A stretch of DNA of 53,111 nt from Pyramidobacter piscolens W5455 (lineage in GTDB: Bacteria > Synergistota > Synergistia > Synergistales > Dethiosulfovibrionaceae): positions 1 to 53,111 of the forward strand of contig NZ_ADFP01000097.1 in the NCBI RefSeq assembly GCF_000177335.1, given 5' to 3'. Below the pieces are notes generated by a model. It made no database searches and had not been told where the DNA came from. It was given only the letters and a program-made list of their open reading frames with translations. Positions 4,555 to 53,096 of the stretch are shown one piece after another. Made by a program: the position numbers and the translations under genes. Positions within the stretch are counted from its first letter, which is position 1. Every line of letters starts with the position of its first letter.

Positions 4555-5385
4555 CTACTTGCACTGTTCGGTCAGCTCGCGCAGGAGCGGCTCGAACTTG
4601 ACGCCGTACCAGTGCGAAGGATCCTGCGCGGTGAACCGAATGCAGTGCAGCGTGAAGTCGGCGGCGGCGACGGCCGCGTCGTAGGCGGATCTTCCGCCCG
4701 TCAGCATGCCGGCGAACACGGAGGCGAAAACGTCGCCGGTGCCGTGGCAGCCCTTCGGCAGCTTTTCGTGGCGGTAATAGCGTTTCTGCGCGCCGTCGTC
4801 CACCACGACGCCCGTCGTCGCGTCGTCGTAACTGACGCCCGTCAGCACCACGGTTTTGGCGCCGGCTTTGCGCAGCGCGGCGAGCAGGGCGTCGACGTAG
4901 CTTTCGTCGTACCGCTCGCGGTATTCCACGCCGGTGAGCAGCGCCGCCTCGGTGATGTTCGGCAGGATCAGATCGGCGGCGAAGACGAAGCGGCGCATGG
5001 CCTCCACGTACGCCGCGTCGAATCCCGGATAGAGCCGCCCGTTGTCGGCCATGGCCGGGTCGGCGATGCGCAGCCCGCCGGGCTGAAGCAGCGTGCCGTA
5101 AATTTCCTTGAGGTATTCGGTCTGCGAGGCGTTGCCCAGATAGCCGCTGTACACCGCGTCGAAACGGATTTGTTCGCGTTCCCAGTGCTCGATGATGCGC
5201 GGCATTTCCGCCGTCAGGTCGTGGAACGTGTAGCCCGTAAAGCCGCCGGTGTGCGTGGAAAGCACGGCCGACGGCAAGATCGCCGTCTCCAGCCCGCAGG
5301 CGGACAAAATCGGCAGCGCCACCGTCAGCGAGCACTGCCCGACGCAGGAAATGTCCTGCACCGTCAAAATCCTTTTGTACGACAT
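4555..5385 (-). CDS. pdxY: Pyridoxal/pyridoxamine kinase (PdxY/PdxK family)
   Basis: Ribokinase-fold B6-vitamer kinase of 276 residues that phosphorylates pyridoxal or pyridoxamine in the PLP salvage pathway. The N-terminus (ILTVQDISCVGQCSL) is typical of PdxY/PdxK, TGGFTGYTFHDL (46-57) builds the substrate pocket, and the anion hole plus catalytic base are in CHGTGDVF with Asp218. The start at 5385 is chosen for its AAGGAG and because it begins at the conserved N-terminus, although the frame is open back to 5559. PdxY and PdxK cannot be separated from sequence alone. It is a single-gene unit, and its own promoter carries an inverted repeat over the -35 box. Confidence 0.9.
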   Translation of the reverse strand: MSYKRILTVQDISCVGQCSLTVALPILSACGLETAILPSAVLSTHTGGFTGYTFHDLTAEMPRIIEHWEREQIRFDAVYSGYLGNASQTEYLKEIYGTLLQPGGLRIADPAMADNGRLYPGFDAAYVEAMRRFVFAADLILPNITEAALLTGVEYRERYDESYVDALLAALRKAGAKTVVLTGVSYDDATTGVVVDDGAQKRYYRHEKLPKGCHGTGDVFASVFAGMLTGGRSAYDAAVAAADFTLHCIRFTAQDPSHWYGVKFEPLLRELTEQCK

Positions 5386-50278: not shown

Positions 50279-50330
50279 CATTTTCATGAAACGCACGGTT
50301 TTACACTCCCGACGCAAAGAGGACATTTTC

Positions 50331-51506
50331 ATGGACGAGATGAACGAACTGTACTACCGGCTTCCTTATGTAAAAGAATTCGACGCCGTCGTCACCGGCT
50401 GTGCGCCCGGCAAAAACGGCTTCGAGGTGACGCTTTCGCAGACCGCTTTCTATCCCGAAGGCGGCGGCCAGCTCGCCGACAGCGGCGTTATCGGCGATGC
50501 GGCCGTCAGCGACACGCGCCGCAAAGACGGCGCCATTGTCCATTACGCCGACAAGCCGCTCCCGGTCGGCAGCGTCCAGCATGGCGCGATCGACTGGCAG
50601 AAACGATTCGACCACATGCAGGCCCATTCCGGCGAGCACATCGTCTCCGGTCTGGTCCACAGGCGCTGGGGCTACGACAACGTCGGCTTCCACATGGCTG
50701 CCGACAAAGTCACCGTCGATTTCAACGGCCCCATCGGCGAGGAACAGCTCGCCGAACTGGAACGCGATGCCAACGCCGCGATCTACGCCAACCTTCCCGT
50801 GCGCGTCGCGTTCCCTTCGCCGGAAGAGCTGGCGGCGCTCGATTACCGCAGCAAGAAGGAACTGAGCGGCGCCGTGCGCCTCGTCGAATTTCCCGGCGTC
50901 GATCTCTGCGCGTGCTGCGGCACTCACGTGGAGCGCAGCGGCGAAATCGGCCTGATCAAGTTCATCGCCATGGCCCGCTACAAGGGCGGCGTCAGGATCG
51001 AGATGCTCTGCGGCCGTCTCGCCATGCAGGATTACGCGCGCAAAAACGAGCAGGAGCGCGAGATCGGGCGCATCTTTTCCGCCAAGCCCTACGAGACCGT
51101 CGAAGCCGTGCGCCAGCACGTCGCCGCCGCCGAAGCGGCGGAAGCCCGCGCCTCCGAGCTGGCGCGCCGCTACTTCGAACTGCGCACCGCGCAGTTCCCC
51201 GCCGGCGACGGTCTGCTGATCGATTTCGAAGAAGGCTTCAAGCCCGCGGAGCTGCGCAAGTTCTGCGACGCCCTCGTCTCCGGCGGCAAGGCGAAGACGG
51301 CCGCCGTTCTCTCCCCCGCCGAAAGCAACGGCAGAAAAGGCTGGAACTACGTGATCTGCGCCCGCGAACCCGTGCTGCGCGAGGCCGTCAAAACGCTCAA
51401 CAAAGAGCTCGGCGGCCGCGGCGGCGGCGACCCGACGCTCGTACAGGGAACGTTCTTCGCCGGGCGCGCCGACATCGAGCGCGCGCTCGAAGCGATCTGC
51501 CGATGA
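50331..51506 (+). CDS. Alanyl-tRNA editing protein (AlaX-L type, with DHHA1)
   Basis: Free-standing relative of the AlaRS editing domain (391 residues) that deacylates mischarged tRNAAla (Ser/Gly). The N-terminal beta-barrel has QTAFYPEGGGQLADSG; the zinc site is His99 and His103 (AHSGEHIVSG) with Cys195 and His199 (CCGTH); the C-terminal DHHA1-like domain includes FCDALVSGGKAKTAAVL and GGRGGGDPTLVQG. It lacks the aminoacylation domain. The start at 50331 has GAGG nine bases upstream; earlier ATGs fall at or before the transcript start. One of two plus-strand genes, with its own promoter. Confidence 0.93.
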   Translation: MDEMNELYYRLPYVKEFDAVVTGCAPGKNGFEVTLSQTAFYPEGGGQLADSGVIGDAAVSDTRRKDGAIVHYADKPLPVGSVQHGAIDWQKRFDHMQAHSGEHIVSGLVHRRWGYDNVGFHMAADKVTVDFNGPIGEEQLAELERDANAAIYANLPVRVAFPSPEELAALDYRSKKELSGAVRLVEFPGVDLCACCGTHVERSGEIGLIKFIAMARYKGGVRIEMLCGRLAMQDYARKNEQEREIGRIFSAKPYETVEAVRQHVAAAEAAEARASELARRYFELRTAQFPAGDGLLIDFEEGFKPAELRKFCDALVSGGKAKTAAVLSPAESNGRKGWNYVICAREPVLREAVKTLNKELGGRGGGDPTLVQGTFFAGRADIERALEAICR

Positions 51507-51563
51507 CGATTTGCAAAAAACGTTCCCCGCGGGACACTCCGAAAAAAAATCAGCGCGTGAAAA

Positions 51564-51610
51564 CGAACAGGGAGCGCCTCCGACCAAAAAACGGAAACGC
51601 TCCCTGTTCG
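51564..51610. terminator. Hairpin between convergent alaX and the ArsD-like gene
   Basis: Thirteen-base arms CGAACAGGGAGCG (51564-51576) and its complement (51598-51610) around a 21-base loop with a small inner stem. It lies between two convergent stops, but the T-runs are short, so terminator strength is uncertain. Confidence 0.6.
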
Positions 51611-51660
51611 TCGCGAAAGATCTCCGCCGCCCCCCCAAAGAAACGGGGCAGCAGCTTTTT

Positions 51661-52116
51661 CTAATGATGTCCGTGATGGCCGCAGCCGCAATGATGCCCG
51701 TGGCCGTGCTCGCGCCCTTCGGCGTCGTCCGAGCAGCCGTCTTCGGCGTAGCGCTCACGGCCGCAGCCGCACTCGCCGTCGCGCCCCTCTTCAACGTCAT
51801 CCTCGTCCACCCAATCGTAGCCCAGGACTTCCGGCGGCAGTTCGAGCCAGTCGATCAGATCGACGTCGTCGGGATAGCGTCCGGCGATGACGATAACGCC
51901 GTCCACCAGCATTACGGGCAGGCGCTCCGCGCCGAAAACTTTCAGGTACTGCGCGGCGGCGGGATTCGCCTCGAACGCCGCCGGCTCTTTGGCCAAGTCG
52001 TGGCGCTCCCATTCGACGCCCTGATGCGTCAGCACGTCCAGCGACTGGGCCAGATCGGCCAGCTCCTGCTCGTCGTCCCATTCGGCCGCAGCTTCGTAAA
52101 TTGCCAGTTTGCGCAT
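51661..52116 (-). CDS. ArsD-like protein with a His/Cys-rich metal-binding tail
   Basis: A 151-residue protein. Residues 1-95 resemble the ArsD arsenical metallochaperone fold (KLAIYEAA, VEWERHDLAKEPAAFEANP, LPVMLVDGVIVIAGRYP), a thioredoxin-like domain. The N-terminal Cys-Cys and following Cys of ArsD that carry the metalloid are absent (the region reads EAAAEWDD). Instead, an acidic linker (about 101-115) leads to a tail with Cys116, 118, 128, 143 and 145 and eight His (137, 139, 141, 142, 147, 148, 150, 151). No arsA, arsB or arsR is nearby. Binding of zinc, nickel or copper is suggested, not shown. AAGGAGG precedes the ATG. Confidence 0.75.
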   Translation of the reverse strand: MRKLAIYEAAAEWDDEQELADLAQSLDVLTHQGVEWERHDLAKEPAAFEANPAAAQYLKVFGAERLPVMLVDGVIVIAGRYPDDVDLIDWLELPPEVLGYDWVDEDDVEEGRDGECGCGRERYAEDGCSDDAEGREHGHGHHCGCGHHGHH

Positions 52117-52220
52117 GATCGGTTCCTCCTTGAAATAAACAACGGTATCATCCGGGAAAAGTTCGACGCCGAACAGCCGTATCTTACCATAAAGCGGCGT
52201 TCCTCACGAGCCGCAGGGGA

Positions 52221-52946
52221 TCACTCGGACGTTTCCCGTTTTAGAATCTCGATCGCCTCGCCATAGTCGCGGAGGCGGTAATCGGCGAGCGCGTCGATGC
52301 GGGCGCGGTCGGCGTCGGCGTAGCGGTCGTAGACGGCGGCGGCTTCGATGCCGGCGTTGCGGGCCGATTCCACGCCGACCAGCGAGTCCTCGAAGATCAG
52401 ACATTCGGCGGGCGCCGCGCCGAGGTCGCCGAGGATACGGAAATACACTTCCGGGTCGGGCTTCATCGCGCGCACGTCCTCGCGCGCGTAGACGGGGGCG
52501 AAGTACTCGTCGAGCGGAGCTTTGGCGAGGATGTTGCGGTTGACGGTACGGTAAATATCGACGGTGCCGCGGCGCGTCGCGGTGGCAATGGCGAGGCGGA
52601 AGCCGCGCGCTTTCAGCGCCTTGACGAACTCGTCGGCGCGCGGTTTGTAATCGACGACGTTCTCGAGGAAGTCGCGGGCGATGCGGTAGCGCAGCCTGTG
52701 AATCTCGTCGGCCGTCAGCGGCGAAGCGTAGTTTTCCTTTAAATAGGCGCAGTAGTCGCCGTACGGGTCGGGACTGGCGGCGCGCTCGCGCAGCAGGGCG
52801 TCGCGCTGCCTCTGCAGATCGCCGCCGTCCCGTTCGCCGCCGCCGATCCGCTTCACCAGCTCCACGTCCACGGCGTTCCACACGCCCACCGAGTCGATCA
52901 GCGTGCCGTCCATGTCGAAGATAACCGTTTTTTTCCCGCCGAACAT
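52221..52946 (-). CDS. HAD-superfamily phosphatase (beta-phosphoglucomutase/phosphatase-like)
   Basis: Cytoplasmic HAD hydrolase of 241 residues. Motif I is VIFDMDGTLIDS (nucleophile Asp11, acid Asp13), the helical cap covers about residues 20-95, motif II is IATATRRGT, motif III is the Lys in REDVRAMKPDPEVYF, and motif IV is LIFEDSLVGVESARNAG. This is the subclass IA phosphatase/phosphomutase type; the substrate is unknown. GGGAGG before the ATG at 52946 sets the start. It is preceded by a strong bidirectional terminator, so it has its own promoter. Confidence 0.88.
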   Translation of the reverse strand: MFGGKKTVIFDMDGTLIDSVGVWNAVDVELVKRIGGGERDGGDLQRQRDALLRERAASPDPYGDYCAYLKENYASPLTADEIHRLRYRIARDFLENVVDYKPRADEFVKALKARGFRLAIATATRRGTVDIYRTVNRNILAKAPLDEYFAPVYAREDVRAMKPDPEVYFRILGDLGAAPAECLIFEDSLVGVESARNAGIEAAAVYDRYADADRARIDALADYRLRDYGEAIEILKRETSE

Positions 52947-53044: not shown

Positions 53045-53096
53045 AAAAAAACGGAGAGCCGCGGAGCGAAAACGCTCCGCGGCTCTCCGTTTTTTT
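53045..53096. terminator. Strong bidirectional terminator at the window end
   Basis: A perfect 18-base stem (ACGGAGAGCCGCGGAGCG and complement), loop GAAAAC-like, with A6 before and T7 after. It ends a gene lying beyond the window or insulates the HAD gene. Confidence 0.87.

Follow-up and report, generated by a model that had tools for sequence, protein, structure and literature searches.

ArsD is, to our knowledge, known only as a chaperone for arsenite and antimonite and as a weak repressor. The window analysed here, by which the whole stretch of 53,111 nucleotides is meant, is contig C97 of an assembly of 2.56 Mb (98.8% complete) from Pyramidobacter, a bacterium of the gut and mouth, and close to its end lies a gene for an ArsD-like protein in which the arsenic cysteines are gone and the C-terminus is rich in histidine and cysteine. 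The parts of the gene are the following.

51661..52116, minus strand: ArsD-like gene, 151 aa (open reading frame; PF06953 at 68.3 bits; orthologues in 6/6 Pyramidobacter genomes; core dN/dS ~0.07)
52123..52129, minus strand: Shine-Dalgarno-like GGAGGAA, 5' of the ATG of the ArsD-like gene (sequence)
51817..52116, minus strand: putative ArsD-fold core, residues 1-100 (phmmer to 3KGK, 3MWH and 3KTB; core alignment; top seven Foldseek matches ArsD)
52066..52092, minus strand: residues 9-17 (AAAEWDDEQ), standing in place of the As(III) loop CCxxGxCG (comparison with P0008)
51772..51816, minus strand: acidic linker, residues 101-115, DWVDEDDVEEGRDGE (translation; poorly conserved between orthologues)
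51664..51771, minus strand: His/Cys tail, residues 116-151, with 8 His and 5 Cys (translation; enrichment; homologous tails in G001, G004 and G005)

The list of open reading frames and the translation agree with the initial annotation on the coordinates 51661-52116 and put the gene on the minus strand. The reading frame is real, since orthologues differ mainly at third positions of codons read in the minus frame and the dN/dS of the core is ~0.07. Between the more distant pairs of tailed Pyramidobacter, dN is ~0.02-0.03 as against a dS of ~0.28-0.38, and the ArsD-type core is under strong purifying selection. A long, GC3-biased open reading frame on the plus strand (51511-52266, 251 aa) was rejected as an antisense artefact of the composition of the coding strand. 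No sigma-70 promoter was detected by a simple scan.

The globular part belongs to the ArsD family, as had been proposed from the sequence pattern. PF06953, the Pfam model of ArsD, matches the window protein with an E-value of 9.6e-19 and 68.3 bits (gathering score 27), and all six Pyramidobacter orthologues are above this score. The NCBIfam equivalog model NF033727, on the other hand, gives 57.7 bits, which is under its cut-off of 90; judged by these two models, the window protein is an ArsD homologue and not a called ArsD equivalog. In a sequence search of solved structures, phmmer matched it to R773 ArsD (PDB 3KGK, E 3e-14, with residues 13-99 aligned without a gap, and 3MWH, E 1e-13) and also to the Bacteroides ArsD structure 3KTB. 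The cores are 61-96% identical within Pyramidobacter. The structure model of the window protein is weak, with a mean pLDDT of 52.5 from an alignment of only four rows. When this model was given to Foldseek, the top seven PDB matches were all ArsD with a probability of 1.00 and were the sole significant ones, so that the shallow model does not contradict the ArsD fold put forward in the initial annotation; these matches are supportive and not independent, because Foldseek scores residues as well as shape. In the Pfam search PF06953 alone was significant for the window protein, without any GroES or FKBP core, and no DNA-binding domain was found.

The loss of the arsenic site is borne out, although it goes further than the replacement of N-terminal cysteines that was first described, being substitution together with partial deletion. 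The As(III)-loop segment reads MRKLAIYEAAAEWDDEQEL in the window protein as against MKTLKIYDPALCCSSGVCGPSVDPEL in a canonical Synergistota ArsD, so that the loop has been substituted and has also shrunk by seven residues; the former arsenic-site segment reads EAAAEWDDEQEL. The motif CCxxGxCG is absent from 6/6 Pyramidobacter proteins and is kept in all 28 ArsD homologues from other genomes, which were drawn from two samples of ~390 genomes each and one small phylum. One extracted row that lacked the motif was a spurious match and not a true ArsD. Cys12, Cys13 and Cys18 of ArsD are reported as essential for chaperone activity (PMC4562236, citing Lin 2007).

In the tree all Pyramidobacter proteins fall in a single clade (support 100/99), which groups with the lone ArsD of a different Synergistota family (83/82) and with an ArsD from a gut ars operon together with that of Bacteroides (95/89). 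Since 28/28 of the other homologues keep CCxxGxCG and the Pyramidobacter proteins make a single clade, the As(III) site would most simply have been lost once, on the Pyramidobacter stem, from an ordinary ArsD. Across 188 Synergistota genomes, PF06953 was found in the six Pyramidobacter and in three others. The lone ArsD gene (L012:1492-1851) carries CCITGICG and adjoins a Ppx/GppA-like gene, with no arsA in the stretch read.

The 151-residue product ends in ...ECGCGRERYAEDGCSDDAEGREHGHGHHCGCGHHGHH, and translation verifies that eight His and five Cys lie within its final 36 residues, after the acidic linker. At the 2.9% background of the genes of the window, 13 His or Cys in 36 residues has a p of ~1.3e-11, and p is still ~1e-5 once the ~850,000 windows of a proteome are allowed for; the tail is therefore not due to chance. 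The runner-up gene of the window has 6/36. The cysteines of the tail are arranged as CxC and not as vicinal CC pairs; C-terminal vicinal pairs are also missing from some accepted ArsD proteins (PMC4562236).

Across the genus the tail takes two forms, with the core more conserved than the tail. In clade A (G000, G001, G004 and G005) a His/Cys tail is present in 4/4 species with 11-19 His plus Cys, and its length and composition vary between close species through in-frame insertions and deletions; in one orthologue the tail has only three Cys. In clade B (G002 and G003) the acidic linker is followed by a short tail, DVPCPCGCGKPKSKHGFFWM, with three Cys and one His. Both forms have CGCG and a later His in common. 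The clade-B tail CPCGCGKPKSKHGFFWM is the same at 20/20 positions in the two genomes, while their cores agree at 62/90 (69%) and their linkers at 6/15. Such identity above cores that are only 69% identical indicates, on comparison of the sequences, that the tail is constrained and not merely drifting, at least in clade B. The short Cys/His motif of the clade-B genes (L006:686-1099 and L005:1474-1851) is strongly constrained. A likeness of this short tail to SEC-C was considered, but Pfam gave no such match. The search for the domain with its tail in Synergistota, which the initial annotation had suggested, returned tailed orthologues; the gain of a 13-ligand tail holds for the four species of clade A and not for the genus, because two of the six species end in the different short tail. 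No tailed relatives outside Pyramidobacter turned up when genome contigs and viral contigs were scanned, and no tailed, Cys-less ArsD was seen outside the genus in the collections searched, the plasmid and phage matches having been inspected in part. The plasmid and phage searches returned only ArsD below 60% identity, and the rows inspected were ordinary.

The neighbourhood of the gene contains the following features.

52221..52946, minus strand: HAD-superfamily hydrolase, upstream of the ArsD-like gene (PF00702/PF13419; synteny in L020, L022, L029, L030 and L033)
53052..53096, no strand assigned: 17-bp perfect hairpin with a T run after it; the HAD gene is on one side and an arsR that lies off the contig on the other (sequence; L029, L030)
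51565..51609, no strand assigned: inverted repeat with 12-bp arms at 51565-51576 and 51598-51609 (sequence; between two convergent genes)
50286..51506, plus strand: convergent neighbour gene (open reading frame; conserved by synteny)

The HAD gene adjoins the ArsD-like gene in every Pyramidobacter species, and the pair is conserved throughout the genus. The convergent neighbour, whose product we take to be an alanyl-tRNA-editing-like protein, is unlikely to belong to the ArsD-like system. The inverted repeat, which a terminator scan with a loop limit of 8 missed, is possibly a terminator shared by the two convergent genes. That no ars operon lies around the gene is true of the window, but the contig stops at 53111 and whatever is further upstream is out of sight. 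The hairpin is also present in L029 and L030, where it is followed by arsR, and the window's assembly breaks just past it. In three relatives (L020, from Pyramidobacter sp. C12-8; L029, from G001; and L030, from G005), what lies past this point is a metal island: an ArsR/SmtB regulator, an HMA protein, a P-type ATPase of the Zn/Cd type and, after it, a Ni/Co ECF importer resembling NikKLMQO. Contig C124 of the window's own genome has arsR within its first 450 bases, an HMA protein at 636-851, the ATPase at ~1001-2881 and NikM at 4666-5271, and its first bases match the sequence 3' of the hairpin in the relatives. From this synteny we infer that the window contig and C124 are adjacent.

The ATPase of this metal island passes the cut-off of TIGR01512 (ATPase-IB2_Cd), a model of the cadmium family, the regulator passes that of HTH_metalloreg, and of the importer parts CbiM is above its cut-off, NikL and CbiQ match more weakly and the NikK-like part is matched by DUF4198. 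The ArsR repressor (L042:1-450) begins with a cluster of His, MPPVRLPHRHG, at its N-terminus and has CPCA at its C-terminus, presumably a metal site unlike the classical ELCVCDL. The ArsD-like gene is probably outside the metal operon, because a strong terminator hairpin stands between arsR and the HAD gene. In clade B the ATPase is on other contigs than the ArsD-like gene, with ArsR beside the ATPase in G003. NikM is present in 4/4 His-tailed genomes and in 0/2 clade-B genomes, the latter being 82-83% complete and the whole amounting to a single evolutionary contrast.

Evidence for arsenic handling in the genus is sparse. No Acr3 was found in Pyramidobacter, matches to the ArsB family are only weak (in four of six genomes), and there is no ars operon or arsA in the 20 kb around the orthologue in L020. 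A Get3/ArsA-family ATPase (NCBIfam TIGR00345) is encoded in 6/6 Pyramidobacter genomes, but not near the ArsD-like gene. Two observations were made on ordinary arsD genes elsewhere. The scan of viral contigs for canonical ArsD gave one interrupted gene (L080:1206-2004, IMG/VR), in which the arsD after arsR stops about 38 residues in and is followed by an integrase-like open reading frame on the opposite strand, as if an insertion sequence had interrupted it. A scaffold obtained from human faeces and labelled, without verification, 'Bacteriophage sp.' (L085:1042-4621) has an ordinary arsR-arsD-arsA, and its ArsD has a WLxLPxxVLG stretch in common with the Pyramidobacter protein.

By a narrow balance of probability we hold that the protein is a former ArsD arsenic metallochaperone which has turned into a cytosolic buffer or chaperone for a divalent metal, most likely Ni(II) and otherwise Zn(II). 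The initial suggestion of a metallochaperone or buffer with changed specificity keeps its footing, since the protein is an ArsD homologue, its arsenic cysteines have been lost and its tail is rich in ligands; what falls away is a tail gain common to all six species. Metal binding, the identity of the metal and the client of the ArsD-like protein are what we infer here from sequence. A divalent metal as the new target would agree with the genes close by, which encode a Ni/Co importer and an exporter of the Zn/Cd type. Nickel is favoured because of the pattern of NikM and the likeness to the tails of HspA and SlyD, while from the type of the exporter zinc or cadmium is a possible metal. More tentatively, and as a possibility that we would not back as the likelier outcome, the ArsD fold may have been re-specified from arsenite to Ni(II) in this one genus, by losing the As(III) loop and growing a His/Cys tail, and may now be buffering or handing on nickel from the adjacent NikKLMQO-type importer. 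On the broader reading of a divalent-metal buffer or chaperone, the flexible tail would capture incoming Ni(II) (or Zn(II)) through its His and CxC ligands and hold the free metal ion low, and it could hand the metal to clients or retain it until the exporter is induced. The core would provide dimerisation and docking, and the HAD hydrolase, being the most constant gene partner, might be a metal-dependent client.

Two points speak against this reading. The tail of H. pylori SlyD binds nickel yet is dispensable for the nickel phenotypes tested (PMC7840056), so a tail that binds metal does not have to be what makes a protein work; and the two clade-B species have the core but no tail rich in His. 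As an alternative, the core could have kept the docking role of ArsD with the single-domain Get3/ArsA-like ATPase, any metal binding by the tail being incidental or regulatory. ArsD docks on ArsA (PMC2963123), the ATPase is present in all six genomes, and the core is better conserved than the tail. Against this, the gene for the ATPase is not near that for the ArsD-like protein, and the two show no pattern of co-occurrence, because the ATPase is found in 14/14 genomes of the family, eight of which have no ArsD at all; a link to it was not supported by this comparison, and we regard the docking reading as unlikely. The in-frame indels that alter the length and composition of the tail between close species are what would be cited if it were functionless, slippage-prone, low-complexity sequence on an ordinary ArsD relic. 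Such a relic is at odds with the strong purifying selection on the core, with the retention of a ligand-rich tail in all clade-A species and with the invariant clade-B tail above its diverged core, and it is considered quite unlikely.

Arsenite or antimonite could still be handled by the tail cysteines (CGCG ... CGCG) in place of the N-terminal loop, as the C-terminal Cys pairs of canonical ArsD also bind metalloid (PMC6683785) and the tail may descend from them. This we judge very unlikely: the lost N-terminal triad is the site required for chaperone activity (PMC4562236), the eight His of the tail are not ligands for As(III), one clade-A orthologue has only three Cys, and there is neither an Acr3 in the genus nor any ars gene nearby, ArsB-family matches being weak. 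Least probable of all is a metal-responsive DNA-binding or co-repressor protein, as R773 ArsD weakly is. R773 ArsD acts as a repressor, and its C-terminal Cys pairs have been linked to regulation, but a Bacillus ArsD without these pairs fails to bind its own promoter (PMC4562236). In favour of this reading, clade A has a gene for an ArsR/SmtB repressor nearby; against it, such a dedicated regulator already stands beside the ATPase, and the ArsD-like protein has no recognisable DNA-binding domain. The reading as a divalent-metal buffer or chaperone is the one we prefer.

If true, it would offer a clear-cut example of a metallochaperone switching its metal, and the His-tailed and the other Pyramidobacter species would make a natural pair for comparison. 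It also calls for caution in annotation, as Pfam says ArsD and yet the gene should not be taken for arsenic resistance. The literature search, which was partial and so gives a weak absence, found nothing on an ArsD with a histidine-rich tail or on a zinc-linked ArsD-like protein.

Among known systems, R773 ArsD (3KGK/3MWH) resembles the Pyramidobacter protein in the ungapped core of residues 13-99, in the fold suggested by the weak structure model, in being a small cytosolic protein and in having a Cys-containing C-terminus. The Pyramidobacter protein differs in lacking the CCxxGxCG loop and in scoring below the NCBIfam equivalog cut-off; its gene has no arsA, arsB or acr3 nearby, and it carries a His/Cys tail where R773 ArsD has vicinal Cys pairs. 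The lone Synergistota ArsD (G152, G153) is its nearest group in the tree and likewise has no arsA in the stretch read, but retains CCITGICG and has no His-rich tail. In other proteins a His/Cys-rich C-terminal extension is found on an unrelated folded core, and the present tail, with 13 ligands in 36 residues and found in four species, is of this HspA/SlyD type. The tails of HspA and SlyD bind nickel (PMC7840056). HspA of H. pylori likewise joins a conserved fold to a genus-specific His/Cys-rich C-terminal extension (PMC7840056), but its core is GroES and not ArsD. SlyD has a flexible tail of variable length, rich in His, Cys and acidic residues, with 13 His and 6 Cys in E. coli and 5 and 5 in H. 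pylori (PMC7840056); its core is a PPIase/chaperone, whereas that of the present protein is a predicted thioredoxin-like ArsD core. Hpn and Hpn-2 are rich in histidine too and buffer nickel in the cytoplasm (PMC7840056), but these small His-rich proteins have no ArsD domain. Taken with these systems, the Pyramidobacter protein is an ArsD by descent and, in its likely function, closer to the metal buffers with His/Cys tails.
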